Source: Caldinitratiruptor microaerophilus (lineage in GTDB: Bacteria; Bacillota; Sulfobacillia; Symbiobacteriales; ZC4RG38). From it: a DNA stretch of 64,000 bases. This document shows, one piece after another, positions 20,203-63,764 of the stretch. The notes below the pieces were generated by a model. That model worked only from the letters and a program-made list of their open reading frames with translations. It ran no database searches and was not told where the DNA came from. The DNA lies in contig NZ_AP025628.1 in NCBI RefSeq assembly GCF_025999835.1, positions 1,550,001-1,614,000 of the forward strand, in the 5' to 3' direction. How positions within the stretch are numbered: position 1 is the stretch's first letter; each line of letters starts with the position of its first letter. Both the position numbers and the translations under genes were made by a program.

Positions 20203-23200
20203 TCAGCCCACGGGCGCGAGCTTGCGGACCCGGCCCAGGAACGCCTTCGATTCCTGGATGGCGACGTTGATGTCCGTGGCCTGCGGTGTCAGCGAGTTGA
20301 CGATGTCGCCCTGGACGAACCCGCTCAGGGGCGCCCAGTGGATCGGGAGGCCGATCTCGTGCACGATCCGGTCCCCGAGCCGCAGGGGCCTCAGCCGCGG
20401 CGTCACGATGGCCTGCACCCTGACCTTGCCCCGGGCCGTCTCCACCTCCACCCAGTCGCCGGTCCGGATCCCGAGCTCCTGGCCGAGCTCCCGGGAGATC
20501 TCCACGAACGGCTGGGCGAAGGCCTCGGCCAGCCACGGCAGGTTGCGCGTCATGACCCCGGAGGTCTGGTGCTCGGTGAGCCGGTAGGTGGTCACCACGT
20601 ACGGGAACTCCTCCGGCTTGCCGTAGTGGTCGTAGGGGGACTGGAACACGCGGGCGGTGGGGATGGACTGCTGCTTGTAGAGCCGGTTCTGCACGGGCGA
20701 CTCCCAGGGCTCGTAGTGCACGGGCACCGGCCCGTCGGGGAGCGGCCCCCAGATGCCGCCGAGGCCCCACGGCTTCATGATGAAGGGCGTGTTGCCGGGC
20801 ACGCCGACCGGCGAGACCTCGCCGGGGGCAACCGGGAGCATGTCGGGCACGTCGACGCCCTTCCACTTCTTCTCCGCCTCGTCCCACCACACGAGCGGCA
20901 CCTTCGACCAGGGCCGCCCCTGCGGGTCGGCGGAAGCCCGGTTGTACAGGACCCGCCGGTTGGCCGGCCAGGCGAAGCCCCAGCCCAGGTGCAGGTAATC
21001 GGCCTTCCCGTCCGGACGCGCCTCCGTCCAGCCGTCGGGCCGGTTCGGGGCGGCCGGCTTGCGGCTGTCGGCCCGGTTGCCGGATTCGGGGTAGACGCCC
21101 GAGTAGATCCAGCAGCCGCAGGCGGTCGAGCCGTCGTCCCTGAGCTGCGCGAAAGTGGACAGGCGCTTCCCCGTGGCCACCTCGTACCCGTTGATCTCCG
21201 CCAGGACCTTGAGGTGGTCGATCTCGCCGGGATGCTCCTTCGACTCGTAGTCCCACACCAGGTCGAGGATGGGCCGGTCCTTGGCGGCGGTCGACCCGGC
21301 GTAGAGCTTCTTCAGGCGCAGGCCGATCTGCCAGGCGTACCAGGCGTCGCTCTTCGACTCACCCAGTGGCGCGATGGCCTGGTGCTTCCACTGGATCAGG
21401 CGGTGGCTGTTGGTGAACGAGCCCTCCTTCTCCAGCGGGCCGGCCGCCGGGAGGAGGAAGACCTCGGTCTTCACGTCCGCGGGGTTGTTGCCCTCCATCT
21501 TCCAGAACTCGGCCGTCTCGTTGTCGAAGAGGTCGACGACCACGAGCCAGTCGAGCTTGGGCATCACCTGGGGGATCTTCCGGGCGTTGGCCGAGCCCAC
21601 GGCCGGGTTCTGGCCGAAGTTCAGCAGGCCCTTGATGACGCCCTCGTGGATGCCCTGGAAGATGTCGTAGTGGCTGTAGAAGCCCTTCCCCTTGGGCAGG
21701 TACTGGTAGGCGAACTCGTTCTCCGGCTGCGCGGCGTCCCCCCACCAGGCCTTGAGGAGGCTCACCATGAACTTGGGCTTGTTGACCCAGTAGCTGTCCT
21801 TGGCCGTGGTCCTCTCCAGGAAGTCCTTCAGCGTCTTGTCCTGCACGAGCGGGGTGCCGAGGTACCCGGGCAGGTCGTGGTAGAGCACGGCCAGGTCCGT
21901 GGCACCCTGGACGTTGGCGTGGCCGCGCAGGGCCGCGATGCCGCCGCCCGGCACCCCGATGTTGCCGAGGAGCATCTGCAGGATCGTGGCAGCCCGGATG
22001 TTCTGGACGCCCTTGGTGTGCTGCGTCCACCCCATGGCGTACGCGAACACCGCCGCCTTGCCGGGCTGGCCCGTGGACGTGATGATCTCCGCGATCTCCT
22101 GGAACGTCTCCACGGGAATCCCGGAGATCTCGCTGACCACCTCGGGCGTGTACTGCCCGTAGATGCGCTTGATGTGCTGGAAGACGGTGTTTGGGTCCTC
22201 CAGCGTGTCATCGCGCAGCGGCTTCCCGTCCTCGCCCTTCTGGAAGGCCCACGTGGCCTGGTCGTACTTCTTCTTCTCCGGGTTCCAGCCGCTGAAGAGG
22301 CCCTCCTCGAACCGGAAGTCCGGGTTCACCAGGAGTGGTGCGTTCGTGTAGTTGACGACGTAGTCCCGGTGGAACTTGCCGTGCGTGATCGCGTAGTTGA
22401 TCAGCCCGCCGAGCACGGCGATGTCGGTGCCCGAGCGGAATGGCACCCACTTGTCCGCCTTCGACGCCGTTCGGGTGAAGCGCGGATCGATGACGATGAC
22501 CTTCGCGCCCTTCTCCTTGGCGCGCAGGAACCACTTGAAGGAGATCGGATGATTCTCGGCGGCGTTGGAACCCATGAAGACGACGACGTCCGCGTTCTGG
22601 ATGTCCCAGAACGACGTGGTCATGGCGCCACGCCCGAACCCCGTGCCCAGACCGGGCACCGTGGAGGAGTGTCATATCCGGGCGTGGTGCTCGAGGTACA
22701 CCACGCCGAGGGCACGCATCAGCTTGGTGAGGAGGTACGCCTCTTCGTTGTCGATGCAGGCCGAGCCGATGTGGGCGACGGCCTCCAGCCGGTTGACCGT
22801 GACCCCGTCCTCCGTCTCGATGAAGTACCGGTCACGGGTCTCCTTGATCCGCCGGGCGATCTGGTCGAGGGCCCAGTCGAGCTCGACCTCTTCCCAGCGG
22901 TCGGAGTTCGGCCGGCGATACTTCGCCTTCAGGACCCGCTTCGGGTTCGGCCGGCCCAGAGCCTCGTACGCGAACTGGTACGAGGCGGCGCCCTTCGGGC
23001 ACAGGGACCCCTCGTTGATCGGGCTGTCCGGGTTGCCCTCGAGCTGGAGCAACTGGCCCTCCTTGACGTAAGCGATCATCCCGCACCCGACGGAGCAGTG
23101 CGGGCAGACGGTCGGGACCTCCTTCGCCCGGGCGATGCGCAGCTCCTTGAGGTCCCTGGCCATGGCTCGCGTTTCGTCCGCGAACAGGAGCGCCGCCGTC

Positions 23201-48924: not shown

Positions 48925-49566
48925 GTGCCCTCGAATCGCTCCCGTCGCCGGACCGTGTCTTGCCTTCGCATCCCTCCTAAGTCTAACCCAGCCTTTCTCC
49001 CGCTGTCACCGGCGCGTCGAACGGCGGGTCATGACCCCGCCCGTGCCCTGGCTGTCCCGTGGAACAGGACATCGTTCTGGCGATGAGGAATGCCTTTGCC
49101 CAACTCGCAAAAGTTGCGAGTCAAGATCTGGCAACGAGGTTCAATCTGTGCGACTGGACCGGCCGAAACGGCCTGATACGTTGACATAACACCTTGTTTC
49201 GGCAAACCTGGGCCGCCTCCCGCCCCCCGGACCCCCCTTTCGCCGACCGATGCCACCGCCCCCACCCGCAGATCCTGATACAAAGCGGCAAGCCTCACCT
49301 ATCAAGATGTGCGTTTCGTTCCATCCAGGGTGACGGCGTTTCGGCCAGAGGGCCCGCCTGCCAACGTACACGGGCCACGCCGGCGGGTCCGGCCAGACCC
49401 ACCCCGGTCTCCCCTGCCCGGCAGCACCAAACCACCCGCTCGAACTCTCCCCGGACAACCCGGTCGAGATGGACCTGCGCCGACAGGCGGTCTCGCACGC
49501 TGTCCGAACCGCCGCGGTGCGCTGCGCGGAGACTCATGTGCCCCGTCCGGCCCGGCACACCACGAA
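48925..49566. other. Gene-poor spacer between the CuMMO operon and the DEAD-box gene
   Basis: About 640 bases with no frame I can support on either strand; short frames present lack ribosome sites and family character. The part near 49030-49330 is less GC-rich than its surroundings and could hold the DEAD-box promoter, a long cold-shock-type leader or a decayed sequence. No tRNA-like arms were recognised. Confidence 0.5.
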
Positions 49567-49595
49567 GGACGGCGTCCGTCCGCCGGACGCCGTCC
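49567..49595 (-). terminator. Hairpin terminator after pmoB
   Basis: Perfect 12-base arms GGACGGCGTCCG (49567-49578) and CGGACGCCGTCC (49584-49595) with a 5-base loop, 31 bases beyond the pmoB stop. No T-run follows, but the stem is very stable and well placed to end the operon. Confidence 0.7.
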
Positions 49596-49625
49596 CTGAT
49601 CCTCACCCGCCTGCGCAAGCCGGGC

Positions 49626-50840
49626 TCAGAACCTCGTGGGAACCAGGCTCGACTCGACCGTGATCCGGTTGCGCTGCCCCCCGGCGTCCTGGACCGTGAA
49701 CACCCCGGCCACCGACATCTGCGACTGCTGCACCGGGATGAGCTTCTCGTCCTCCCAGGCCGGGTCCTGGATCGATACCTTGAACCGCTTCGTCTCCCCG
49801 GGTCCCACCGTGCCTTCCGGCTCCACCGCAAACAAGTGCGGGTACCCGGGGTCGGCCGTCGCCCGGTTCACGAAGGTCAGGTTCGATGTGGTGAACTCGA
49901 CCAGACGGACGGGCTCGTTCCCCAGGTTCGTCACCTCAACCTCCATGGCCAGCGTGTCCGTATCGGGATCGTACGTGGCCGCCGTTGCCCTGGCCTCGGC
50001 AAAGCGCAAGGGCTGGGCGATCTCCGGTGGCTCGAACCGGATGACCTGCTGGGGGATCCGCACCGGGAAGGCCCGCTGGATGTACATCCAACCGGCGGCA
50101 AGGAGAACGACCGCCAGGAGAGCCACCACGTTGACGAACCGGTGATCGGCCTTCGTGATGAGGCCGACAGCCGCGCCGTCGTCGTTGATCGGCAGTTGGC
50201 TCGTGACCGCTAGCCGCGTCACCGTCGGCTTCGGCCCGGTCCAGTACCACATCCACCATAGCCCCAGGACGAGGCCGAAGAGGGCCCACCCCACCACGAA
50301 CCCGGTCTGGTAGCGCTCCAGGTCCACGGTCCTGCCGTCGAAGAGCGTCACCAGGTTCCGGAATCCGCCCGCCGCCTCCTGCACCGTGATCCACTGCCCC
50401 GGCCCCAGGAGCGAACCGGCGCCCTCGATGGCAAGCACCGGGTGCACGTGCCACTGGCCCGGCCGGCGCCCTTCGACCGTCATCCGGAACTCGTAGACCC
50501 CACCCTTCCGGACGAAGATCGAGCCGGGCGCCGGCTTGCCGTTCACGATCCTCTCCTTCATCACCACCACCGGACCCGGCGCCACCACGCCCAGGTACGC
50601 CACCTCGGGCTCCGGTAGCGTAGGCGGCCAGGTCTCCAGGATCTTCGCCGTGCCCGTGATGGTCAGGGACTCGCCCTGCTTCACCGTGTCCGCGGAGAAC
50701 CTCACGTCGAAGAAGGCGACGGTCTTCTGCCTCAGGAATGCCTCCTGAGCGCGCTCGCCGTGGGCGAACACGCCCGAGGTCAGTCCCACCGAGAGCCCGA
50801 TGGCCAGGGCGAACGTGAAAAGAAGCCGCTTCATTCTCAT
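49626..50840 (-). CDS. pmoB: Copper membrane monooxygenase subunit B (PmoB/AmoB/HmoB-like)
   Basis: 404 residues: signal peptide cleaved at FA|HG, an N-terminal cupredoxin domain, two membrane helices (about 182-204 and 240-258) and a C-terminal cupredoxin domain ending SSLVPTRF. The CuB ligands are all present: H27 as first residue of the mature protein (HGERAQEAFLRQKTVAFFD), and H131 and H133 in WHVHP. They correspond, six positions earlier, to H33, H137 and H139 of Methylococcus. The start overlaps the stop of the small ORF (ATGA). It is the last gene of the C-A-x-B operon, with a hairpin after it. This order differs from C-A-B by the inserted gene. Confidence 0.95.
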   Translation of the reverse strand: MRMKRLLFTFALAIGLSVGLTSGVFAHGERAQEAFLRQKTVAFFDVRFSADTVKQGESLTITGTAKILETWPPTLPEPEVAYLGVVAPGPVVVMKERIVNGKPAPGSIFVRKGGVYEFRMTVEGRRPGQWHVHPVLAIEGAGSLLGPGQWITVQEAAGGFRNLVTLFDGRTVDLERYQTGFVVGWALFGLVLGLWWMWYWTGPKPTVTRLAVTSQLPINDDGAAVGLITKADHRFVNVVALLAVVLLAAGWMYIQRAFPVRIPQQVIRFEPPEIAQPLRFAEARATAATYDPDTDTLAMEVEVTNLGNEPVRLVEFTTSNLTFVNRATADPGYPHLFAVEPEGTVGPGETKRFKVSIQDPAWEDEKLIPVQQSQMSVAGVFTVQDAGGQRNRITVESSLVPTRF

Positions 50841-51100
50841 TCCCGTTCACTCTCCCTGCCGTTCCGGGGACCGTCCCCGCGCGGCACCACCGGTCCGCCC
50901 CGGATGACCTCCGCCAGTCCCGGCACGACCTCGTCCCACGCCATGACGAGAAACCCTGCAACACCCAGAAGCACCGAGAGAAGGGCCGGGCGGGTGATGT
51001 CGACCTCTGAGTCCGCACCGCCGTGCGCCAGGGCGAGCGGCGCCTGCAGCCACAACGACCCCATGACCGTCAAGACGACGGATACGAACCGGCGCCTCAC
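50837..51100 (-). CDS. Small exported membrane protein inserted between pmoA and pmoB
   Basis: 87 residues of unknown family. It has a signal peptide (RRRFVSVVLTVMGSLWLQAP) with predicted cleavage at LALA|HGG, so the mature protein would begin with histidine just as PmoB does. One membrane helix follows (PALLSVLLGVAGFLVMAW) and then a short polar tail. It starts 16 bases after pmoA and overlaps pmoB by 4 bases, so it is made with the complex. It is not PmoD-like. A small added subunit or copper-delivery factor is inferred only from position and N-terminus. Confidence 0.8.
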   Translation of the reverse strand: MRRRFVSVVLTVMGSLWLQAPLALAHGGADSEVDITRPALLSVLLGVAGFLVMAWDEVVPGLAEVIRGGPVVPRGDGPRNGRESERE

Positions 51101-51116
51101 CGATCACCCCGCCTTT

Positions 51117-51881
51117 CTATACCTGCTTCAGGAACCTGCGGATGGGCCAGACGGCCAGGTAACGGCCGATGAACTGGCCAACCCAGTACCCGGCGATCGC
51201 CAGCGTAGCGCCGAAGGCGAAGGCGACGTACTGGGCCTCCTGCAGGAAGGTGCGCAGCGACCCGTGCTCGATGACGCGCAGGTATTCCGGGGTCTGCATT
51301 CGGAGATAAGCGATGCCCTGGACGTCCGCAAGAGTGACGACGTGCCCCATGAACTGCACGGGTTGCAGGAAGGGCGCCAGCGGAACATAGTTGCCCACCC
51401 ACAGGGCGAGGGTCCACACCATCCCGCCGATCAGGGAGGTGAGCACGAAGCTCCGGGTCTTCAGGAGGATCCAGTCCATCAGGATCCCGGCCAGGATGGT
51501 CGACTGCGGCCACACGAAGTTGAGCGGATAGGAAACGAGGACCTTCCACTGCAGCCACCGGCCGATCCACGAAGCGAGGAACAGGCACACGGACGTATAG
51601 GTGGCGCCCGTGGGGAACCGCCACGCCGCCCACTGGATGTACTGGAGCGCCGACGGAATGATGATCATGGCAAAGGGCGTGATGGTCATCCACCACTGCC
51701 GGTCCTTCCAGTCCGTCCACATGTCCCAGTCGCCCGCGAACAGGAGCTTCGTGATGTCCGCGGCGGCCGCCACCACGAACGCCGCGGTGACCCAGAAGAC
51801 GAGATCCCACTTGCGGTCGATGAACCGGTACTTCTTGTTCACGAGCTGCCGGAGCTCTTCCACCCGCGCGACCGTCGCCAC
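51117..51881 (-). CDS. pmoA: Copper membrane monooxygenase subunit A (PmoA/AmoA/HmoA-like)
   Basis: 254 residues, about seven membrane helices. The universal primer region GDWDMWTDWKDRQWWMTITP is present. Family stretches YPLNFVWPQSTILAGILMDWILL, ADVQGIAYLRMQTPEYLRVIEHGSLRTF and the IGR-containing end also align by eye with PmoA. GTG 51881 is chosen because GGAGGAGG lies 7 bases upstream and the size then equals known PmoA (about 247). The local pattern reminds me of Gram-positive hydrocarbon monooxygenases more than of ammonia monooxygenase, but a tree is needed. Confidence 0.95.
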   Translation of the reverse strand: MATVARVEELRQLVNKKYRFIDRKWDLVFWVTAAFVVAAAADITKLLFAGDWDMWTDWKDRQWWMTITPFAMIIIPSALQYIQWAAWRFPTGATYTSVCLFLASWIGRWLQWKVLVSYPLNFVWPQSTILAGILMDWILLKTRSFVLTSLIGGMVWTLALWVGNYVPLAPFLQPVQFMGHVVTLADVQGIAYLRMQTPEYLRVIEHGSLRTFLQEAQYVAFAFGATLAIAGYWVGQFIGRYLAVWPIRRFLKQV

Positions 51882-51920
51882 ACCGCTCCCTCCTCCACAT
51901 CCAAGACTCATCTTGATCGT

Positions 51921-51959
51921 GCGGCCCTGCCGGCGCCACGCGGACGGCGGCAGGGCCGC
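51921..51959 (-). promoter_or_regulatory. Stable hairpin between pmoC and pmoA
   Basis: Perfect 12-base arms GCGGCCCTGCCG (51921-51932) and CGGCAGGGCCGC (51948-51959) with a 15-base loop, 12 bases after the pmoC stop. There is no T-run, so it more likely protects or processes the pmoC message than terminates it; similar hairpins follow amoC in nitrifiers. Confidence 0.7.
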
Positions 51960-51971
51960 AACCACAGGGGG

Positions 51972-52775
51972 TCAGCTGGCCGCCCCCACCTCAGTGGGCA
52001 TCTCGATCTCCTTCTCGATCTGGTACAGACGGATGATCGTCTCGGCCCACAGGGCGAAGATGCCGCCCGCCAGCCACCCGTACGTCACGAACGGCCAGTG
52101 GAAGGGGGCCGCGAAGAACTCCTCCGCCCACCACAGGCTGTGGCCCCATTCGTTGAACGCCACCTGCAGCATCTCGGTGACCGAGGCGGCGATGAGGAAG
52201 GCGAAGGACCAGGGGAACCCCCTGGACGGGCCGTACACAGCTGGCAGACGCGTACGGCCGTAGAGGTAGGTGCCGATGCTGAACGTGATGCCGAGGGGGA
52301 ATGCCATGTAGAACATCACCACGTGCGGCGGCGTGATTGCCGTGTCACGGACCACGGTCTGGTGCCACGCACCGTCCTGGTTCGGGAAGAAGCTGGCCAT
52401 GAAGTAAAGGATGAGGCTCGTGATCCCCACGAGGCCCCAGAAGGTGGCGATCCGGCGCACCTCCTCCCGGGCGTCGACCTTCTCCGCGGCCAGCGCCCGG
52501 CCCGACTTGACGAGCCACCCCCACCAGAGGCCGGTGAACGCACCCACAGACAGGATCTCCGCGACGAACAGGCTACGCCAGTACAGGGTGAAGTCGTAGC
52601 TGGCGGAGTCGAGCCCGGCGGTCCAGAACCGGAGCACGTACAGCTCGAGCCCCAGGAAGAGCGCCAGCACGGCGGCGTAGCCCCACAGGAGGGTCCGCCA
52701 GCCACCGAGCCAGTCCGTCGGGCCGTATCGCTCGGAAACCACCCGCCGTTCCTTCACGGATGCCAGGGTTGCCAT
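51972..52775 (-). CDS. pmoC: Copper membrane monooxygenase subunit C (PmoC/AmoC/HmoC-like)
   Basis: 267 residues with about six membrane helices. The CuC/CuD ligand pattern is complete: D134, H138 and H151 (D-x3-H-x12-H, in PNQDGAWHQT and TPPHVVMFYMAFPLG) match D156, H160 and H173 of Methylococcus PmoC, and N208 and H212 (FNEWGHSLWWAEE) match N227 and H231. The segment FAAPFHWPFVTYGW is also conserved. A GGAGGAGGAGG site precedes ATG 52775. It is the first of the monooxygenase genes, 157 bases after the alcohol dehydrogenase gene. Confidence 0.95.
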   Translation of the reverse strand: MATLASVKERRVVSERYGPTDWLGGWRTLLWGYAAVLALFLGLELYVLRFWTAGLDSASYDFTLYWRSLFVAEILSVGAFTGLWWGWLVKSGRALAAEKVDAREEVRRIATFWGLVGITSLILYFMASFFPNQDGAWHQTVVRDTAITPPHVVMFYMAFPLGITFSIGTYLYGRTRLPAVYGPSRGFPWSFAFLIAASVTEMLQVAFNEWGHSLWWAEEFFAAPFHWPFVTYGWLAGGIFALWAETIIRLYQIEKEIEMPTEVGAAS

Positions 52776-52813
52776 CGTTCCTCCTCCTCCCGAAATACCG
52801 ATCTGTTCATCAA

Positions 52814-52842
52814 ACGATACGATCGCAGCCCGCCGTTGTCGG
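52814..52842 (-). promoter_or_regulatory. Weak candidate internal promoter before pmoC
   Basis: Minus strand CCGACA (52842-52837), 17-base spacer, TATCGT (52819-52814), about 40 bases upstream of pmoC. Match is 4/6 in each box, so this is tentative. A GG-N10-GC pair further upstream lacks the rest of a sigma-54 site. Confidence 0.3.
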
Positions 52843-52932
52843 TAGTCCGGACCTTCGCCTTTACGGGGTCCTCTGTCCCACCCCCTATGGTCGTGGCGCC
52901 GCGCCCCGGCCAGGCAGAATTCACGGCCTGCG

Positions 52933-53976
52933 TCACGGGACCAGGACCGCCCGTCCCTTGACGCGGCCGCCGTGGAGGTCGGCGATAGCCTGGTTCACCT
53001 GGTCCAGGCGGTAGTGCACCGTAGCAAGACGCACCCGGCCCTCACCCGCCAGGGTCATGAGCTCCACGAGGTCCGTGTAGGTGCCCACCAGGTTCCCGAC
53101 GATGTTCTTCTCGCTGAAGATCATGTCGATCGCGGGCACCCGGATCGTTCCCCCGTACCCGATCACGAAGTAGTAGCCCGCGTTCCTCGTCATGGCGAGC
53201 CCCTGTTCGATGGAGCCTCCCTCCCCCACGAAGTCCAGCACGGCCTGCGCGCCCCTTCCGCCGGTGAGGTCGAGAACCTCGCGGACGGCGTCGTCGCCGC
53301 CCTTGACCCGGTACTCCGCCCCGAGCTCCTGGGCAAGGCTCAGGGCCAGGTCGGAGCGGTCGACCACGATGATCCGGGCGGGCGACAGGGTCCGCAGCAC
53401 CTGGAAGGCGATGTGCCCCAGGCCGCCCATGCCGATGATCACCGCGTGGTCGCCCGGCTCGAGCACCCTCACCGCCTTCTTGGCCGCGTGGTAGGCCGTG
53501 AGGCCGGCGTCGGCGTGCGGGGCGACCTCCCTGGGCTCCACTCCGTCGGGCAGGCGGACGAGGTTGCGCTCCTTGACCAGCAGGTACTGGGCGAAGCCCC
53601 CGTCCCGGTTGATGCCGGGGAACACGCCGTTCTCGCAGTGCATGTCGTTGCCCCGGCGGCAGGCCGGGCAGACGCCGTCGGTGATGAGGGGGTGGACGAT
53701 CACCGGGTCGCCCCGCCGGAAGCGGCGCACCCCGCGCCCCACCTCCTCCACCCAGCCGGCGTTCTCGTGGCCGAGGATGTAGGGCAGGTCGACCTCGACC
53801 TTGCCCCGCCAGATGCCCTCGATGATGTGCAGGTCCGTGCGGCAGAGCCCGGCGCCACCGATGCGGATGATCACGTCGTCGGGCTCCTGGATCTCGGGGT
53901 CGGGCACCTCTTCCACCTTCAGGAACTCGGGCCCCCGGAACTCCGGATCGTATTCGTACAGCCTGGCGGCCTTCAC
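52933..53976 (-). CDS. Zinc-dependent alcohol dehydrogenase of the monooxygenase operon
   Basis: 347-residue medium-chain dehydrogenase. Catalytic-zinc region GGAGLCRTDLHIIEG and GHENAGWVEEVG; structural-zinc lobe CPACRRGNDMHC with the first of four usual Cys replaced by Asp; NAD loop VIIGMGGLGHIAFQVL followed by VVDRSD. It should oxidise the alcohol released by the monooxygenase. The start is 6 bases after the DUF59 gene. In actinobacterial soluble propane monooxygenase clusters a similar gene follows the same two accessory genes (from memory). Confidence 0.92.
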   Translation of the reverse strand: MKAARLYEYDPEFRGPEFLKVEEVPDPEIQEPDDVIIRIGGAGLCRTDLHIIEGIWRGKVEVDLPYILGHENAGWVEEVGRGVRRFRRGDPVIVHPLITDGVCPACRRGNDMHCENGVFPGINRDGGFAQYLLVKERNLVRLPDGVEPREVAPHADAGLTAYHAAKKAVRVLEPGDHAVIIGMGGLGHIAFQVLRTLSPARIIVVDRSDLALSLAQELGAEYRVKGGDDAVREVLDLTGGRGAQAVLDFVGEGGSIEQGLAMTRNAGYYFVIGYGGTIRVPAIDMIFSEKNIVGNLVGTYTDLVELMTLAGEGRVRLATVHYRLDQVNQAIADLHGGRVKGRAVLVP

Positions 53977-53982
53977 GCGGCA

Positions 53983-54699
53983 TCACCTCGGTTGGACAGT
54001 CTCGGGTTCGGCGGACCCGTATCGCGTCCGGAGCAGCCCCTGGCAGAACTGGGCGTTGAACTCCATGCTGATGCGGGTGCGCCGGGCCTCCCGGAGCACA
54101 TCCCGGAGCTGCGCGGGGTTCAGCAGTAGCCCGTTCTCCCGCGTGAAGGCCGGGGCGGTGGGGAGATCCTCCAGGCCCATCTCGCGGCAGATGCCAAGGT
54201 ACCGGTCCACCAGGTCGCCCGCTTCCGCGTCGCTTTCCGCGAGGCGGCGAAGGTCGGCTACGCACATCGCCACGATCTCGTCGTCGGACAGCCCCCGGCG
54301 GATGAGGAGGCGGACAAGGCGCTCCTGGCGGGCGAGGAAGGCCTTGAGGCGGAACAGCCAGCGCAGGTCCTCCAGGTTCCCGTCGGCGAGGCCCGAGAAG
54401 GCGGCGCCAAAAGGTCTGCCGGTCGCCACCCCGGCGTTCACCTCATCGGCTGCGAAGTGGTCCTCCAGCCGGACCTGCACCTCGGATACCCACGGCAGCT
54501 CCCGGACCCGGTCCCGGATATCTTCGGCCATGATGTAAGCGAAGTTCGGCGAGCACCAGTACGTGGGCAGGCGGAACCGGACACGCACCACGGGGCCGTC
54601 GACGTCCACCCCGCTGATGAACCCGAGGTCCGTGACAGGGCGGTCGAGCTCCGGGTCGTAAACCTGCTGGAGCCGGGCGTAGACCTCCTCCACTCGCAT
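53983..54699 (-). CDS. DUF59/MIP18-type metal-sulfur assembly protein
   Basis: 238 residues. An N-terminal DUF59 domain (EEVYARLQQVYDPELDRPVTDLGFI, LPTYWCSPNFAYIMAEDIRDRV) is joined to a helical C-terminal half. DUF59 proteins (SufT, PaaD, Cia2) help load metals or Fe-S clusters. In propane monooxygenase clusters the same fused type occurs, so it probably supports the monooxygenase or dehydrogenase. ATG 54699 has AGGGGGGAC upstream; the longer frame has no matching N-terminus. Confidence 0.85.
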   Translation of the reverse strand: MRVEEVYARLQQVYDPELDRPVTDLGFISGVDVDGPVVRVRFRLPTYWCSPNFAYIMAEDIRDRVRELPWVSEVQVRLEDHFAADEVNAGVATGRPFGAAFSGLADGNLEDLRWLFRLKAFLARQERLVRLLIRRGLSDDEIVAMCVADLRRLAESDAEAGDLVDRYLGICREMGLEDLPTAPAFTRENGLLLNPAQLRDVLREARRTRISMEFNAQFCQGLLRTRYGSAEPETVQPR

Positions 54700-54719
54700 C
54701 CGCGTCCCCCCTGGCGGCC

Positions 54720-55742
54720 TCACGCCATCATGGCGGCGACCGCGTCCCCCTGAAGCCGGGCCCTGTGAGCGGCGATGTCGATCCCGTAGAGTCGGGCGGC
54801 GTTCTCGCCCAGGATCTTCTTCTTCGCGGCGAGGGTCAGGTCGACCCCGGTCTCCTCCCTCAGGTCCTCCGGAAGCTCGAAGGCCATGAACTTCTCGATG
54901 ATCCACCGCGGCGTCCATATCGCGTAGTCGCTGCCGAAGAGGAGCCTGTCCTCGCCCACCCACCACAGTAGCTCGGCCATGACCTCCGCGAAGTACCGCG
55001 GCCGGGCGTGGACGAACGGCATCACGACAGCCAGCCCGCCGTAAACGTTCTTCTCCTGCGTCGCGATCCAGCAGAAGTCTTCGAGCCGCGGCAGACCGCA
55101 GTGGTCGACGATGAAGTTGAGGTCCGGAAAGGCGGTCGCCACCTCGTCCACATCGTGCACGTCGAAGGCGTCCTTGTTGAGCGGCCAGACCGTCGGGCCC
55201 TTGTGCACGTGGATGTTCGTGATGCCAAGCTGGCGGCACTTCTCGAGGTAGCGGATGGCCCAGGGGTCGGTGAGCCGCCAGCCCTTGGAGTCACCGCGCC
55301 ACTCCGCGGTGTAAAGCTTCACGCCCTTGATGTGGTAGCGCGAGGCCAGGAACTCCAGGTACTCCAGCCCCCGCTCCCCGTCCCGGGGGTCCCAGGCACC
55401 GTTGAGGATGAAGCGGTCCGGGTACATCTCCTTCAGGACTGCGTTCTGCTCGGTCGTGTTGAAGCCGCTGCGGAAGAACTCCTTGAGGTACGTCGGCTGG
55501 AAGATCCCGATGTCTACATAGCCCTCCACGAAGAGGTCGTGGACCATCTGCTGCGGTGTGTACTTGCGGAATTTCTCGATGGGCCAGATCGCTTCCCTCG
55601 GGCTGAGGTTGCGATGGTAATCGTAGAAGCAGTTGATCCACCCCGTGCCGTACTGGTTCGCCTGGTTCTCGGGCGAGCCGTCCCACAGATGCACGTGGGC
55701 GTCGATGACGAAGATCTCCCCGCCGTCTGGTGTGCGGAACAC
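54720..55742 (-). CDS. Amidohydrolase-2 family protein of the alkane monooxygenase accessory set
   Basis: 340-residue TIM-barrel hydrolase. FVIDAHVHLWDG (H-x-H), NCFYDYHRNLSPREAIWP, GIFQPTYLKEF, NIHVHKGPTVWPLNKDAFDVHDVDEVA, VDHCGLPRLEDFCWIATQEKNVYGGLAV and FGSDYAIWTPRWIIEKF. Nearly every block matches the metal-dependent hydrolase I remember from mim/prm propane monooxygenase clusters of actinobacteria, where it is thought to help assemble the oxygenase. GTG 55742 has GGGAGGT 7 bases before it; a longer frame to 55805 lacks such support. Confidence 0.9.
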   Translation of the reverse strand: MFRTPDGGEIFVIDAHVHLWDGSPENQANQYGTGWINCFYDYHRNLSPREAIWPIEKFRKYTPQQMVHDLFVEGYVDIGIFQPTYLKEFFRSGFNTTEQNAVLKEMYPDRFILNGAWDPRDGERGLEYLEFLASRYHIKGVKLYTAEWRGDSKGWRLTDPWAIRYLEKCRQLGITNIHVHKGPTVWPLNKDAFDVHDVDEVATAFPDLNFIVDHCGLPRLEDFCWIATQEKNVYGGLAVVMPFVHARPRYFAEVMAELLWWVGEDRLLFGSDYAIWTPRWIIEKFMAFELPEDLREETGVDLTLAAKKKILGENAARLYGIDIAAHRARLQGDAVAAMMA

Positions 55743-55813
55743 GTCAGGCACCTCCCAGCAGAGTAAGACAGGAACCCATGGTCGCCAGGCCGGAAACCGG
55801 GACACCGTCCCCG

Positions 55814-56374
55814 TCAGACCGGCACTCGTTCACCGCGCACCATGCGGACGAACTCGCGCAGGAGCGCGGGATGGTCCGGCCAGGCGCGGGCCGACACCAG
55901 GTTGCCGTCCACGACGGCCTCCTGGTCGACGAACGTACCGCCCGCCGCCTCGACGTCGGGCTTGAGGGCCCAATACGCCGCCATCTTCCTGCCCTTCACC
56001 ACCCCCGCGGCAACGAGTACCAGGGCGGCATGGCAGATCGCGCCGACGGGCTTCTGGTTCTCGAAGAAGTGGCGCACGATCTCCAGGGCACCGGGTTCGT
56101 TGCGGATCCACTCGGGTGCCCTGCCGCCCACCAGGTACAGGGCGTCGTAGTCTGCAGGCCTGACCTCTAAGAAGCCGAGATCGGCCTGCACCCGGTAGCC
56201 GGGCTTCTCCGTGTAGGTCTCCATGTCGGGTTCGAAGTCGTGCACCACCGTTTGCAAAACCTTCTTGCGCGGCGCCGCGACGTGAACCTCGAAGCCCTCC
56301 TCCCTGAGCCGCTGAAGCGGGTACATCGTCTCCAGGGCTTCGGCGCCGTCCCCGGCCATCAGCAGTACCTTCAC
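55814..56374 (-). CDS. DJ-1/PfpI family protein
   Basis: 186 residues. The nucleophile elbow VGAICHAALVLVAAGVVKG carries the catalytic Cys, with the usual upstream Glu likely in GDGAEALETMYPL. LYLVGGRAPEWIRNEPGALEIVRHFF is also typical. Members act as proteases, deglycases or glyoxalases; here protection from reactive aldehydes would make sense, but that is inferred. Its GTG start overlaps the iclR stop (GTGA), so the two are co-translated. Confidence 0.88.
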   Translation of the reverse strand: MKVLLMAGDGAEALETMYPLQRLREEGFEVHVAAPRKKVLQTVVHDFEPDMETYTEKPGYRVQADLGFLEVRPADYDALYLVGGRAPEWIRNEPGALEIVRHFFENQKPVGAICHAALVLVAAGVVKGRKMAAYWALKPDVEAAGGTFVDQEAVVDGNLVSARAWPDHPALLREFVRMVRGERVPV

Positions 56375-57168
56375 GCGACTTCACCTCCGGACGGTCCGAT
56401 GGTCTGGAAAACCACCTTGCGGAGAATCCCCGCAAGCCTTCGTCCCTCGACCTGAAACCGTCTTGGCGTCACCGCGATCCCCATCGCGCCAGCCACTGTC
56501 TCGCCGCCGTCCCGGGCCAGTACAGGCGCCGCCAGGCAGCAGATCCCCTCCTGATACTCCTCCCGGTCCACGGCCAGACCCGTCCGGCGGACCCGTGCCA
56601 GCTCGGCTCGGAGCCGCTCCGGGTCGGTAATGGTGCGCGGCGTGAAGCCCCTCAGGCCCAGGAGGCGTATGTAAGTGTGCAGGGCGGTGTCGGAGAGGTG
56701 CGCCAGCAGGATCTTGCCCACCGCGAGGGCGTGCGCCTCGCCGCGGATTTCACGGCCCATCCGCAGCCCAGGCTGACCTTGGTGCCCCTGCACCGCCTCG
56801 ACCAGCGCCGCCTGTCCGTCGTACACGACGAGGTAGGCCCGGCAGCCGGTGGCTCTGTTGAGGTCCCGCAAAGCGTCGCGGAGGACCGGCAACGGACAGG
56901 AGCCGGATGGCCTGACCGGGGACAGGAGGTCTTCCCGGAACGCGCTGACGTAGTGACGACCGTCTGCGGGGCTCCGGTAAGCGAATCCTTCCTGGCAGAG
57001 GCTGTTCAGGAGGTAATAGGCCGTGTGGGGGCTCTTGCCCAGATGCTGGGCCACCTCGGCAGGGGTGACGCCGGCGGGATGGTCCGCCAGGTAGGAGAGC
57101 ACCCTCAGCACCGCTCTCGCCGTGCTCAGGGCCCGCTGACGCCCCGGATCCGTCGGAACGCGGGGCAC
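56371..57168 (-). CDS. IclR family transcriptional regulator
   Basis: 265 residues with an N-terminal winged helix (TPAEVAQHLGKSPHTAYYLLNSLCQEGFAYR) and a C-terminal effector domain (GEAHALAVGKILLAHLSD, YQEGICCLAAPVLA). GTG 57168 is preferred: GGGAGGT lies 7 bases upstream, whereas GTG 57177 would sit inside that site. A perfect palindrome at 57207-57220 lies about 40 bases upstream and could be its operator. It is the first gene after the sigma-54 promoter, so it may add negative or ligand control to the operon. Confidence 0.88.
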   Translation of the reverse strand: MPRVPTDPGRQRALSTARAVLRVLSYLADHPAGVTPAEVAQHLGKSPHTAYYLLNSLCQEGFAYRSPADGRHYVSAFREDLLSPVRPSGSCPLPVLRDALRDLNRATGCRAYLVVYDGQAALVEAVQGHQGQPGLRMGREIRGEAHALAVGKILLAHLSDTALHTYIRLLGLRGFTPRTITDPERLRAELARVRRTGLAVDREEYQEGICCLAAPVLARDGGETVAGAMGIAVTPRRFQVEGRRLAGILRKVVFQTIGPSGGEVA

Positions 57169-57206
57169 GGTGTCCACCTCCCGAACCCCTCGGGATCGAG
57201 TTCAGT

Positions 57207-57220
57207 GTAGAAAATTCTAC
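57207..57220. promoter_or_regulatory. Palindromic operator GTAGAA-AA-TTCTAC
   Basis: Perfect 6-base arms around AA, in the leader between the sigma-54 promoter and the iclR start. AT-rich palindromes of this size are common IclR-family sites. A second, weaker repeat (TTGCA...TGCAA) lies at 57247-57261. Confidence 0.6.
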
Positions 57221-57372
57221 CCTATCTCTCAACAAAGCCACTTCCGTTGCAACATGTGCAAGGCATGCCGCCGAACCCGGCCCTTGTGCATCACCTCCCG
57301 CGCCGGCGTGCGCGGCGAGGCCGCCCACCGGCCGGCTGCCCGGATCACCCTCGTCGCCGCAAGCCTCCGGAG

Positions 57373-57390
57373 ATGCAAAGCCCGTGCCGG
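57373..57390 (-). promoter_or_regulatory. Sigma-54 (-24/-12) promoter of the alkane monooxygenase operon
   Basis: The minus strand reads CCGGCACGGGCTTTGCAT: GGCACG at -24 and TTTGCA at -12, with exactly 10 bases between GG and GC. Only the first T of TGGCACG differs from consensus. Expected start of transcription is near 57363, about 195 bases before iclR. Half of an 8-bp hairpin (57381-57402) overlaps the -24 box and could also end the activator transcript. Confidence 0.85.
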
Positions 57391-57438
57391 GAGGGGCACG
57401 GGTACACACGCGGTCGGCGGCTCGCGGATGCCCCTGTC

Positions 57439-57496
57439 GGTGTCGCGCCCTGCGACACCGGCCGCCAACAGGCCGCAGTGTCGCAAACGGCGACAC
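57439..57496. promoter_or_regulatory. Paired activator sites TGTCGC-N5-GCGACA
   Basis: Two inverted repeats with the same core and spacer: GGTGTCGC-N5-GCGACACC at 57439-57459 and GTGTCGC-N5-GCGACAC at 57478-57496. Their centres are 38 bases apart and about 86 and 124 bases upstream of the predicted start, the usual placement of enhancer sites. They end 32 bases from the stop of the sigma-54 activator gene. Confidence 0.85.
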
Positions 57497-57528
57497 GTAG
57501 CCGACGAAACCGCGTTCGTCGTGATAGT

Positions 57529-59523
57529 TCATGATAGTTTTCGGTAGATGGTGCTCCGGTGGATGCCCAGTCTCCGGGCGGCAGCCGTCACGTTCCCACC
57601 CGACTCGGAGAGAGCGACCCGGATGAGCTCCCGCTCCTGTTCTTCAAGGGTACCCACATCCGAGCGAACCGGCAGAGACAGGGACCGAGTCCTGCGAACC
57701 GCCGGCCCAGCCGGCGCGGGGTGGGTTGCCGGGGGGCCAGGCGCGGCGAACCGGTCCCGGCTCGCGGCGTATACCTCCGGGGGCAGGTGCTCGGGCCGCA
57801 CGACCGGACCATCGACCTGGAGGGCCAAACGATACGCGACGTTGCGCAGCTCCCGAACGTTGCCCGGCCACGGGTACTCCCAGAGAAGGGCCAGGGCCTC
57901 CGAACTCACGTGGAGCGGCGGCCGGGCCAGCTCCTCGCACGCGCGGCGGAGGAAGTGGTCGAGGAGGAGGGGGATGTCGTCCCGGCGCTCGCGCAAGGGG
58001 GGCAGGGTGAGGCACACCACCGACAGCCGGTAGAACAGGTCTTTCCGGAAAGTACCCTCCCGCATGGCCTTCTCCAGATCCCGGCTCGTCGCTGCGATCA
58101 CCCGGATGTCCAGCCGGATGGGGGCACGCCCGCCGATGCGGACGACCTCGCGTTCCTCCAGCACCCGCAACAGGTGTACCTGGGCGTCGGGCGGCATCTC
58201 GCCGATCTCGTCGAGAAAGATGGTACCGCCACGCGCCAGCTCGAACTTGCCAGGCTTTCCCTCCCGGCTGGCACCCGTGAAGCTGCCGGGATCATACCCG
58301 AAGAACTCGCTGGCAACGAGTTCGCGCGGGATTGCCCCGCAGTTCACGGCCACAAACGGTCCGTGGGCGCGGGAACTCGCCGCGTGAATGGCCTGGGCGA
58401 GCCGCTCCTTGCCGGTTCCGCTTTCCCCGAGAATGAGCACTGGAAGCGAATGGGCGGCAGCCTGTTGCCCGGTCAGGATCACGCGGCGGAATGCCTCGGA
58501 CTGACCCATCAGTTCCTCGAACCGGCACCGGGGCAGAGCCTTGGTCCCGCTGCCGCGCCCACTCACCGCACCTGCCCGCATCAGCGCGCCGACTACCCGG
58601 CCGCCCTGGATGACGGCACGGAGCTCACACCGGTACCGGCCTCGCCGGCCCTCCACATCCCACTCCACTGCCGATCCCAGTTCCAGCCACCGGTTCGCCT
58701 CCGGCAACCCGAACGGTCGGCCGTTCGGATCCAGAAGTCCCTCCTCCATGAGCGCGTCCGAACCGGCGAGGACCCGGCCGCCCCGGTCCAGGGCCGCCAG
58801 CACCTCCTGTGCCTGTCTACGGGCGGAGGAATAGGCCGCGATGACCGCCGCTCGTTCCCACTCGGCTTCCCTGTGCAGTTCGCCTTCGACGGCCCGGGCC
58901 ACGGACGTCACCAGCACCAGGGAGTGGGGATGCACCGCCGCGAACGGCCCCGTGAGATCGATCACGCCGAGCAGAGACCCGGTCACCGGATCGCGCACGG
59001 GGGCGGCCGAACACGTCCAGGAGTGGACGATCTGGCACCAGTGTTCGGCGGCGAAGATCTGCACCGGCAGGCCCGTGGCCAGCGCGGTGCCGATCGCGTT
59101 CGTGCCGGCGGTCGCCTCGGCCCAGCGGGCGCCCGGCACGAAGTTCATCCTCTCAGCCCGCCGGCGGACCAGGCGATCCCCCTCGACCGACAGGAGCAGG
59201 CCGGACGCGTCGGCGATTACCACGAGGTGGCCAGAGTCGGCAGACGCGGCCTTCATCTCATCGAGCCAGGGCTGAGCGACCTGCAGGAGCCTGTCGTACC
59301 GGCAACTCCGGGCGATCTCCTCCTGGGATGCCACAATGGGGGCACGATGGTTCAGTGGGTGCACGCCGCCGCTCCGGCACCGGGTCCACGATGCAGCTAC
59401 GACCTCGCGGACGCGTTCGGCGCCCCCTTCACCTGACACAAATCGCTCCCAGAGACCTTCGAGCACTTTGTTGTGGCGCTTGGGACTGGTGTAGATGTCG
59501 ATGGCGATGTTCGGGTTCCGCAC
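57529..59523 (-). CDS. Sigma-54-dependent activator, AcoR/MimR type
   Basis: 664 residues. N-terminal GAF-type sensor (ATAGTNAIGTALATGLPVQIFAAEHWC, LLGVIDLTGPF), a central AAA+ domain with Walker A GESGTGKERLA, the sigma-contact loop GSFTGA (usually GAFTGA), Walker B GTIFLDEIGEMP and the arginine fingers in FRKDLFYRLSV. A Fis-type helix-turn-helix ends the protein (GGNVTAAARRLGIHRSTIYRKL). It lies directly upstream of paired repeats and a sigma-54 promoter, so it very likely activates the whole iclR-to-pmoB operon when it senses the substrate or its alcohol. Confidence 0.93.
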   Translation of the reverse strand: MRNPNIAIDIYTSPKRHNKVLEGLWERFVSGEGGAERVREVVAASWTRCRSGGVHPLNHRAPIVASQEEIARSCRYDRLLQVAQPWLDEMKAASADSGHLVVIADASGLLLSVEGDRLVRRRAERMNFVPGARWAEATAGTNAIGTALATGLPVQIFAAEHWCQIVHSWTCSAAPVRDPVTGSLLGVIDLTGPFAAVHPHSLVLVTSVARAVEGELHREAEWERAAVIAAYSSARRQAQEVLAALDRGGRVLAGSDALMEEGLLDPNGRPFGLPEANRWLELGSAVEWDVEGRRGRYRCELRAVIQGGRVVGALMRAGAVSGRGSGTKALPRCRFEELMGQSEAFRRVILTGQQAAAHSLPVLILGESGTGKERLAQAIHAASSRAHGPFVAVNCGAIPRELVASEFFGYDPGSFTGASREGKPGKFELARGGTIFLDEIGEMPPDAQVHLLRVLEEREVVRIGGRAPIRLDIRVIAATSRDLEKAMREGTFRKDLFYRLSVVCLTLPPLRERRDDIPLLLDHFLRRACEELARPPLHVSSEALALLWEYPWPGNVRELRNVAYRLALQVDGPVVRPEHLPPEVYAASRDRFAAPGPPATHPAPAGPAVRRTRSLSLPVRSDVGTLEEQERELIRVALSESGGNVTAAARRLGIHRSTIYRKLS

Positions 59524-59713
59524 GCTCCCCCCTCCCCGCCTGCTGGTTGCGGACAGGGTTTCCTGTGTTGTCAGGCAACAATTATTCTACCGAAGTGAGC
59601 AAACTCCTCCGTCCCAAAGCACTTTCCGTCGACCATATCGATCAACGCATGCAATTTGATCAAAACAGTACGTCCCCGTACCCACGCGCAGGCCGCCCGC
59701 ACCCCGACTCCCG

Positions 59714-59743
59714 TTGCCACACGTGCCAGAACGGTGCTATGAT
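59714..59743 (+). promoter_or_regulatory. Promoter of panBC
   Basis: TTGCCA (59714-59719), 18-base spacer, TATGAT (59738-59743), 5 of 6 consensus bases in each box. It gives a leader of about 210 bases before panB. Between it and the divergent activator gene (59524-59713) I find no gene. Confidence 0.75.
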
Positions 59744-59896
59744 GAAGGCGCCGGGCGGCATCCGGAAGAGCCGCACCGTACGTACAATGCATGCGCCGCA
59801 TCCCACGCTTGGACCCTGTCACGGGCCGAGACGAGCGGGCCGTCTGCGGCGTTTCGGAGCCGGGGTCCGCCCCGCCTCCCGGACGCGCACGACCGA

Positions 59897-59929
59897 GGGC
59901 CTCCTGCCGGCCAAGGCAGGGGGCCCTTT
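59897..59929 (+). promoter_or_regulatory. Attenuator-like hairpin in the panBC leader
   Basis: GGGCCTCCTGCC (59897-59908) pairs along all 12 bases (one G-U) with GGCAGGGGGCCC (59915-59926), loop GGCCAA, followed by TTT. It lies 31 bases before the panB start. It may stop transcription in the leader under some condition; the ligand, if any, is unknown. Confidence 0.55.
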
Positions 59930-59959
59930 CCCGTGGGGCGGCGAAGGGAGGGGCTCCGC

Positions 59960-61726: not shown

Positions 61727-62359
61727 CTACCGCCCGATCCGTGCCGCTTGCAGGCACGCCGTGTCGCGTTCCAGTAGCGCCACCAGAACCTCCAGCAACG
61801 GAAGGTAGGGCCAGGGCACGTTCTCCCGCCTGGCATCCGCCAGGAGTCCCGGCACCCAGTCCAGGTGCTCGGTCAACATGCGAGCCTGGTCCTGTGGAGT
61901 GCCCCACCGGGCCAGAAGAGCCATGAACTCAAGCTCCAGCACCAGGTGGTCTGGGGTGCCCTGAAACTCCGGCGGGACCGTCACACCGGCAGCCCGGTAC
62001 AGTTCGGCCACGTGCAGGGCGTGGTCGCTGAGGAGAAACCCGGTTTCGCCCGCAAGCGAAGCCGCCTCCCCCCTTTGCGTCCATGGCCGGTAGCAGGACT
62101 CGACCGGGACGAGGAGCCCTCCGGGCCGTCCGAAGGTACGCTCCCACGCCTCCCGCAGGGGGAGCCTGTCGGCAGGCGGCTCGGTCAGGTCGGCCGGCGG
62201 CTGCATCCCCACCTCTGCGAGTGCGTCCGTCAGCTCCCGGATCAGGTCTCGAGGCGGCTGGTCGCCGGGCGGTGGGGCCATGAGCGCCGCAATCGCGCTG
62301 TACAGCCGGGCGCGGCTCGCCCTGCGGTCGCCGTGTCTGATCGTTCCCAGCGCCTCCAC
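61727..62359 (-). CDS. TorD/DmsD family molybdoenzyme chaperone
   Basis: 210-residue, all-helical protein. Typical blocks are PVESCYRPWT near residue 88, SDHALHVAELYRAAGV and TPDHLVLELEFMALL. Such chaperones bind the Tat signal of a molybdoenzyme until the cofactor is inserted. It is the last gene of the oxidoreductase operon encoded to the right, 6 bases after the cytochrome gene. GTG 62359 has GGAGG 9 bases upstream. Confidence 0.88.
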   Translation of the reverse strand: MEALGTIRHGDRRASRARLYSAIAALMAPPPGDQPPRDLIRELTDALAEVGMQPPADLTEPPADRLPLREAWERTFGRPGGLLVPVESCYRPWTQRGEAASLAGETGFLLSDHALHVAELYRAAGVTVPPEFQGTPDHLVLELEFMALLARWGTPQDQARMLTEHLDWVPGLLADARRENVPWPYLPLLEVLVALLERDTACLQAARIGR

Positions 62360-62365
62360 CCGGGC

Positions 62366-63064
62366 TCACCTCCCGGGCTCTGGACCGCCCGCGGCCCTTT
62401 CGCCCAACTGGATGAGGCTCTCGTACCACTTGCGGTGGTGGCTCCGGGCGAAATCGCGGCTCACCTTGCCCGTGATGATGCCGGAGAGGGCTGCCCGGCT
62501 CCCGGGGTGGCCGACCGCGAGGTAGATGTGCCCAAGGGCAGCGGCGCCGAGGAGGAAGGCGAACAAGGTGTGAATGGGTTGGGCCCACATGACGATCACC
62601 CTGGGGAGCACATCACGGTAGACGAGCATCCAGCCCGTGATCACCATCACGGGGTAACCGGCGATCTGAAGGAGCGAGTTGACCTTCTCACCGGCGTTGA
62701 ACTTGCCCTGTGGCGGGAGTTCGACGTGAAGACCGAAGAACTCCCGCGGAAAGAGGCGCAGGAACCGGCGGTCGTCGGCGTCCCAGGTGCAGCACTCCCG
62801 GAGCCACTCGCGCACGGCGGGCCGGGCTCCCAGGAGAAGGATGGGGACGGTCAGGAACGTGAAGGGCCACGCGGCCCAGCGGTGGATCTGGCCGAAGAGC
62901 CGAAGCGTGTCGGGACCTAGAAGGCCGGGGAGCCCCGACACCACCAGGGCAGCCCCCGTCACGAGAAGCACCAGGAACGTGATCGCGTGGTTCCAGTGCG
63001 CCAGGCGCTCGGCCAGGCTGAAACGAACCACCTCGTTGGATGCGCTCACCTCAGGCCCCTTCAT
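62366..63064 (-). CDS. Cytochrome b subunit of a molybdopterin oxidoreductase
   Basis: 232 residues, four membrane helices, related to FDH gamma subunits. Haem histidines are likely in RLAHWNHAITFLVLLVTG, FGQIHRWAAWPFTFL and LGHIYLAVGHPGS. GKFNAGEKVNSLLQIAGYPVMVITG matches the usual quinone-side loop. It overlaps the iron-sulfur gene by 14 bases. It should exchange electrons with the quinone pool. Confidence 0.88.
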   Translation of the reverse strand: MKGPEVSASNEVVRFSLAERLAHWNHAITFLVLLVTGAALVVSGLPGLLGPDTLRLFGQIHRWAAWPFTFLTVPILLLGARPAVREWLRECCTWDADDRRFLRLFPREFFGLHVELPPQGKFNAGEKVNSLLQIAGYPVMVITGWMLVYRDVLPRVIVMWAQPIHTLFAFLLGAAALGHIYLAVGHPGSRAALSGIITGKVSRDFARSHHRKWYESLIQLGERAAGGPEPGR

Positions 63065-63764
63065 GCTGCTTCCTCCTTTCCCGCAGGGCCCGGAGCCCGT
63101 GCACGGCGAGGCTCAGCGCCGCTGCCGAGGCCGCACCGGCCAACACGATCTGCCCCAGGGGTTGGATGACGCTCTGCCAAGGGTACAGGTAGCGCGGGGC
63201 CTCGAAGTCTGCAGGCAGGAGGTCGCGTTCCATGCCTTCGGGCAAGCGGTAGTAGAAGCTGGTGCCGGCCACCCGGATCACGTCAGCCTCACGGATCGCC
63301 CTGGCGATGGCACTCTCGGGGTCGTCCAGGTCCCCGAAGAGGCGCGCCCCACCGATGCAGGTGCGCACGCAGGCCGGCTCCCGCCCCTTCTGCAGGTCGG
63401 CATAGCAGAAGGAGCACTTCCGGACGATCTTCCGCTCCTCGTCGTAGGTGCGGGCGTCGTACGGGCAGGCCGTGACGCAGTACCGGCAGCCGATGCAGTC
63501 CTCCTCCCGCACGACCACCGGTCCCTCGGCGGTCTTGTACGTCGCGCCTGTCGGGCAGACCTCGGCGCACGGCGGTGCTTCGCAGTGCATGCACTGCGTG
63601 GTGACGAAGGTGCCCTTCAGGCTGGGGTACTCACCGGCCGTCGTGAGGTTCACCTTGGTGAACCGGTTCTCCGGCGCCAGCCCGTAACTGGCCTGGCAAG
63701 CCACCGTACAGGCGGAGCACCCGACACAGCGTTCGAGGTCGACGAACATGGCGTAGCGGCTCAT
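63051..63764 (-). CDS. 4Fe-4S electron-transfer subunit (PsrB/TtrB-like)
   Basis: 237 residues. Four cysteine groups: CVGCSACTVACQ, CMHCEAPPCAEVCP, CIGCRYCVTACP and CSFCYADLQKGREPACVRTC. A C-terminal membrane helix (PLGQIVLAGAASAAALSLAVHGL) anchors it. It lies 3 bases after the molybdopterin subunit. It resembles the beta subunits of polysulfide, thiosulfate or tetrathionate reductases more than FDH-N beta. Confidence 0.9.
   Translation of the reverse strand: MSRYAMFVDLERCVGCSACTVACQASYGLAPENRFTKVNLTTAGEYPSLKGTFVTTQCMHCEAPPCAEVCPTGATYKTAEGPVVVREEDCIGCRYCVTACPYDARTYDEERKIVRKCSFCYADLQKGREPACVRTCIGGARLFGDLDDPESAIARAIREADVIRVAGTSFYYRLPEGMERDLLPADFEAPRYLYPWQSVIQPLGQIVLAGAASAAALSLAVHGLRALRERRKQHEGA

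Follow-up and report, generated by a model that had tools for sequence, protein, structure and literature searches.

The amount of methane and light alkane that reaches the air is governed by copper membrane monooxygenases (CuMMOs), enzymes whose spread by gene transfer is still being worked out. A set of CuMMO genes in 64,000 nucleotides of the Caldinitratiruptor microaerophilus chromosome (NZ_AP025628.1, positions 1,550,001 to 1,614,000; hereafter the window) raises the question of what such an enzyme would do in this host and how it came to be there. Computation shows intact genes with their metal ligands, the clade of the enzyme, the order of the cassette and an empty site in the sister genus. 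We propose, with a probability of roughly 0.75, that a complete cassette for the aerobic oxidation of C2-C4 gaseous hydrocarbons was gained here by horizontal transfer and is regulated through sigma-54 and an IclR-family protein. The host is a cultured, heat-loving, microaerophilic relative of Symbiobacterium. An earlier reading of the DNA alone (the sequence-only reading) had assigned the operon to a probable Bacillota genome; NCBI taxonomy does place the species in the Bacillota, family Symbiobacteriaceae, and the host is neither a methanotroph nor an actinobacterium. The genome of strain JCM16183 (AP025628), a French hot spring isolate sequenced with PacBio, is closed in one contig of 3,599,694 bp with a G+C content of 71.0%, and its announcement does not mention a CuMMO operon (PMC9933637).

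The copper monooxygenase and its clade

The pmoC, pmoA and pmoB homologues are intact open reading frames (ORFs), all on the minus strand between window positions 49626 and 52775. Their order is C-A-x-B, where x is a small ORF between pmoA and pmoB:

51972..52775, minus strand: pmoC/bmoC-like subunit C, 267 aa (Pfam AmoC, 1.5e-48)
51117..51881, minus strand: pmoA/bmoA-like subunit A, about 254 aa (Pfam AMO, 9.3e-57)
50837..51100, minus strand: small protein x, 87 aa, with homologues at the equivalent position in Binatota and Rokubacteria loci
49626..50840, minus strand: pmoB/bmoB-like subunit B, 404 aa (Pfam Monooxygenase_B, 7.9e-96)

All three Pfam scores were well over the curated cut-offs, and the pmoA start codon is a GTG preceded by a purine-rich stretch. 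The sequence-only reading had described a complete CuMMO operon; three intact ORFs on one strand with Pfam values of 1e-48 to 8e-96 bear this out, but the 87-aa membrane protein encoded between pmoA and pmoB had been overlooked. When 30 diverse CuMMOs were aligned, the copper ligands H27, H131 and H133 of PmoB and D134, H138, H151, N208, H212 and H226 of PmoC were invariant. The positions named earlier were exact, and H226 is an addition to that list; by alignment we take it to complete the second PmoC site as its third ligand, with residue roles taken from the established structures of particulate methane monooxygenases (pMMOs). The mature N-terminus of PmoB, AHGE, includes the copper-ligating His. 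An AlphaFold model of PmoB, computed from 26 aligned sequences with rows from plasmid records left out, had a mean pLDDT of 86.7 and a TM-score of about 0.8 against pMMO and ammonia monooxygenase (AMO) chains of the PDB, and these two enzymes are the closest solved structures to the subunits. With C, A and B in one operon and the PmoB and PmoC ligands present, the enzyme is a member of the CuMMO superfamily, and PmoCAB is predicted to have copper-dependent oxygenase activity.

Among the NCBIfam models, those for bacterial AmoA, AmoB and AmoC ranked highest, yet all remained under their curated cut-offs (NF041557, NF041640, NF041641), and the pMMO equivalog models TIGR03078-03080 scored far under theirs, which points to a divergent group. 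The PmoA/PmoB/PmoC phylogeny that had been suggested as a check was built, and in two trees, one larger than the other, the enzyme was placed outside the pMMO and AMO clades, together with Nocardioides and hydrocarbon monooxygenase (HMO) sequences. In the concatenated tree it belonged to a 16-row clade with Nocardioides luteus BAFB (support 100/100) and, nested inside this, to a 10-row set with Rokubacteria, Chloroflexi and Binatota (support 99/98); testing did not clearly reject a pairing of the window enzyme with Nocardioides alone (p = 0.066). Its sequence thus places the enzyme in the butane monooxygenase (BMO)/HMO clade, neither pMMO nor AMO. The sequence-only reading had compared the spacing of the copper ligands with the Methylococcus sites; by phylogeny the enzyme is of the BMO/HMO type of Nocardioides, Rokubacteria and Binatota, not of the Methylococcus type.

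When named genomes were scanned, identities in PmoA were 64-77% for N. luteus BAFB and for metagenome-assembled genomes (MAGs) whose labels are Binatota, Rokubacteria, Chloroflexi, Acidimicrobiia and Proteobacteria, about 45% for mycobacterial and rhodococcal HMO and 46% for the Bacillota MAG Bu37. The N. luteus BAFB locus (L038), to which the literature relates bmoCAB of Nocardioides sp. CF8, shares the clade with full support, is 69%, 65% and 49% identical in PmoA, PmoC and PmoB, and has the order amidohydrolase-MIP18-alcohol dehydrogenase (ADH)-CAB; it differs in its actinobacterial host, in lacking protein x between A and B, and in an ADH only 53% identical. The Rokubacteria locus L025 (AR15) matches the window in gene order, activator and protein x included, with 78% identity in ADH and 71% in PmoA, but comes from an uncultured soil lineage and showed no IclR or PfpI homologue in the stretch examined. 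The Actinobacteria/SAR324-type CuMMOs of Binatota (CAxB, CAxxB), with PmoA about 70% identical and x between A and B, are likewise from uncultured hosts and mostly without the adjoining amidohydrolase-MIP18 pair in the stretches examined. More distant are the HMOs of Mycobacterium and Rhodococcus (NBB4 hmo, pRWAY02), for which oxidation of short-chain alkanes and alkenes is reported; they belong to the wider HMO group and have the CAB order, but their PmoA is about 45% identical and their neighbours are different, for example a methanol dehydrogenase dependent on N,N-dimethyl-4-nitrosoaniline. The other Bacillota CuMMO, the HMO-like enzyme of the Alicyclobacillaceae/Kyrpidiaceae MAG Bu37 (L039), was no closer in PmoA than noted above, and forcing it to group with the window enzyme cost 118 log units and was rejected by the approximately unbiased (AU) test (p = 1.7e-6), indicating two separate CuMMO acquisitions in the Bacillota. 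We also noted a BMO-type contig titled Klebsiella pneumoniae (L028), nested among Binatota, which is probably a mislabelled or contaminated MAG.

An inserted island and its origin

Pfam AMO matches were found in one of 398 genomes of the phylum and one of 154 of the class, each time in the host genome itself, and in a second phylum sample centred on Bu37 (apparently the same genomes) only in Bu37; CuMMOs are very rare in this phylum. The whole cluster lies in an island:

48925..59959, no strand assigned: inserted island that holds all genes of the cluster, flanked by a DEAD-box helicase gene on one side and panB on the other

The order recX, recA, ligT, DEAD-box helicase, panB, panC is shared by the window and a genome of the sister genus (G399), but the distance from the helicase gene to panB is 11,035 bp in the window and 571 bp in G399. 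The G+C content of the island is 67.5%, compared to 72.9% in the rest of the window. When the window was searched for repeats that could mark mobile-element borders, those found were all weak and imperfect, and none was convincing as a flanking direct repeat.

Vertical inheritance in the class, with loss in all other sampled genomes, would also leave a single carrier, given that absence in relatives does not by itself separate gain from loss. We consider it unlikely, because the enzyme is confined to one of the 154 class and one of the 398 phylum genomes and nests among Rokubacteria, Chloroflexi and Binatota, because the island differs in G+C content, and because the cassette splits two genes that adjoin in the sister genus. 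Acquisition by horizontal transfer is the reading that we follow here, and since the empty site is identifiable, whether the cassette arrived as a single unit is testable.

The cassette genes and the probable substrate

Upstream of pmoC, five genes follow one another on the minus strand with short gaps, and an activator gene lies beyond a gap of 351 bp:

52933..53976, minus strand: zinc-dependent ADH (Pfam ADH_N and ADH_zinc_N)
53983..54699, minus strand: MIP18/DUF59-type iron-sulfur cluster assembly protein (Pfam FeS_assembly_P, 1.2e-15), at the equivalent position in L025 and others
54720..55805, start uncertain, minus strand: amidohydrolase (Pfam Amidohydro_2, 2.3e-52)
55814..56374, minus strand: DJ-1/PfpI-family protein (TIGR01382, over cut-off)
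56371..57177, minus strand: IclR-family regulator (Pfam IclR_C and HTH_IclR)
57529..59523, minus strand: sigma-54-dependent activator with a GAF domain (Pfam Sigma54_activat, 3.3e-66)

An ADH module thus adjoins the monooxygenase genes, as in BMO/HMO-type loci. The order activator-amidohydrolase-MIP18-ADH-C-A-x-B recurs in the Rokubacteria MAG L025, where the ADH adjoins pmoCAB, and amidohydrolase-MIP18-ADH-CAB recurs in N. luteus BAFB, Chloroflexi and Acidimicrobiia loci. The amidohydrolase is 58-73% identical to homologues beside CuMMO and soluble di-iron monooxygenase (SDIMO) clusters (73% in L025). In Caballeronia the module, without a CuMMO, flanks an annotated SDIMO; it also occurs without a CuMMO in Thermomicrobium, Rhodococcus and Halorarius, and in Peribacillus, where a PfpI gene lies beside the amidohydrolase and MIP18 genes together with a sigma-54 activator. 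In gaseous-alkane degraders, an amidohydrolase and an iron-sulfur assembly gene have been marked in monooxygenase operons (PMC9213486). The presence of the module beside different oxygenases suggests that it serves short-chain alkane oxidation whichever oxygenase acts first. Two plasmid-borne examples deserve separate mention. On plasmid pA of Peribacillus sp. R9-11, itself a member of the Bacillota (L102, 6461-11443), a sigma-54 activator, amidohydrolase, MIP18 and PfpI set resembling that of the window has no monooxygenase annotated in the same stretch. On the Thermomicrobium roseum megaplasmid (L100, 7373-11153), an IclR-MIP18-amidohydrolase-ADH cluster is followed by some 5 kb in which no genes are annotated and which might hold an oxygenase.

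For the window cassette we infer the substrate range, pathway steps, expression and regulation as follows. PmoCAB, as a BMO/HMO-type CuMMO, would hydroxylate an alkane with O2, and the zinc ADH would convert the resulting alcohol to a ketone or aldehyde. The MIP18, amidohydrolase and PfpI proteins would be parts of the same recurrent module, and the GAF/sigma-54 activator and the IclR regulator would govern the cassette; rpoN was found in the host genome.

Searches of the host genome found no match over cut-off to TIGR03075, the pyrroloquinoline quinone (PQQ) methanol dehydrogenase family (MxaF/XoxF), and, in searches made without a positive control, no match to PF13447, the hydroxylamine dehydrogenase (HAO) family, and no SDIMO match. 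The first two absences argue against methane or ammonia as a growth substrate and, combined with the clade and the ADH module, favor C2-C4 alkanes over both. Nocardioides CF8 is reported to oxidize C2-C4 hydrocarbons, not methane, with its CuMMO (PMC8262859), and from its cultured relatives we infer that the window enzyme would likewise act on C2-C4 alkanes and not on methane. A Symbiobacteriia lineage oxidizes propane anaerobically with nitrate via fumarate addition (PMC9576796), so light alkanes are already tied to the class by another route.

Methanotrophy by means of a pMMO in this Bacillota host is improbable. The superfamily, the ligands and the CAB order are shared with pMMO, and methanol dehydrogenases do occur in some Binatota that have related enzymes (PMC8262859), but the window enzyme lies outside the pMMO clades, it scores far under the pMMO and AMO equivalog cut-offs, no PQQ methanol dehydrogenase in the genome exceeds the cut-off, and the ADH/amidohydrolase module is common to a soluble monooxygenase cluster. 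That the enzyme is an AMO is very improbable: although the bacterial AmoA, AmoB and AmoC models gave the top NCBIfam scores, all three fell short of the curated cut-offs, the HAO family had no match within the limit just given, and both phylogeny and gene neighbors speak against it. Assembly artefact or contamination is scarcely credible. The dip in G+C content could suggest it, but the genome, sequenced with PacBio from a pure culture, forms a single closed circular contig, strong evidence against a chimera, and the island is flanked on both sides by Bacillota core genes in conserved order. The sequence-only reading had regarded a composition break as a possible sign of mis-assembly; such a dip is indeed present, but horizontal acquisition of the island accounts for it better than mis-assembly does.

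Several points weigh against the proposed alkane-oxidizing, sigma-54-regulated cassette. The case for transfer combines an empty site in one sister genome with rarity, phylogeny and composition, and loss in the sister is possible, if unlikely. Alkane oxidation by C. microaerophilus is predicted from sequence, the HAO search had the limit stated above, and for the Binatota in the wider clade the substrate is given as either methane or gaseous alkanes (PMC8262859). A consensus search found no good candidate for a sigma-54 promoter upstream of pmoC; it gave three matches in the window against 0.85 expected, only slightly over chance, and the sole candidate in the cluster (57374-57389), upstream of the IclR gene, has one mismatch. 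With a count near chance and a mismatch, we rejected these promoter matches as evidence. A terminator scan of the locus was at chance level.

Protein x and the extended host range

ORF x and the start of pmoB share 4 bases. Judged by eye and from hydropathy, protein x carries a signal peptide that ends in ALA, has HGG as its predicted mature N-terminus and contains a single transmembrane segment; the mature N-terminus of PmoB, AHGE, is similar. A profile search found homologues at the equivalent position in two dozen other loci, mostly of Binatota and one of Rokubacteria, with tandem copies in two (L023 and L029) and the consensus AHGGM.GP.E.GPP...S..LG..CYW.V.LWP; the conservation of x at this place extends over three or more phyla. 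Searches of protein x against Pfam, NCBIfam and the PDB gave no matches, and the Binatota paper depicts the gene between A and B as 'x, hypothetical protein' (PMC8262859). The family (window 50837-51100, minus strand, and loci L009-L040) is undescribed and combines a signal peptide, a predicted mature N-terminal His and one transmembrane helix. A copper role for it is a guess, but as a CuMMO component that has so far escaped notice, this small protein, conserved between A and B, is a concrete candidate. A bolder proposal, which we hold tentatively and consider rather doubtful, is that x is an unrecognized copper-binding subunit or copper donor of the clade and that C. microaerophilus is the first cultured thermophilic member of the Bacillota to grow microoxically on short-chain alkanes with such an enzyme.

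The sequence-only reading had also held that the locus would widen the host range of CuMMOs. The Bacillota host is confirmed, but the list of known groups was outdated, because Binatota, Rokubacteria and SAR324 had been described and a single sentence of a 2025 paper (PMC12533140) already notes HMO homologues in Bacillota, Bacillota_E and Chloroflexota MAGs. The main text of that paper does not name Caldinitratiruptor. As a statement, the host-range extension is therefore not new. The kind of enzyme is known, other bacteria using it on gases such as propane and butane, and the host is unusual and cultured; what is new is the named cultured host, the empty site, the evidence for two independent Bacillota acquisitions and the conserved protein x. 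A closed genome, a culture-collection strain and an empty site allow a direct test, at about 60 °C, of whether a member of the Bacillota uses such an enzyme.

Two observations concern other parts of the window. A selenocysteine formate dehydrogenase had been read as lying beside the CuMMO genes. An in-frame TGA near 22680 on the minus strand, in the formate dehydrogenase alpha context ARIUHSSTVPGLGTGFGRGAMT, is consistent with such an enzyme, which looks real, but at near 22.7 kb it lies about 27 kb from the operon. Beside panC, at 61727-63764 on the minus strand, are genes for a TorD/NarJ-like chaperone, a cytochrome b561-type subunit and a 4Fe-4S subunit of a further molybdoenzyme.

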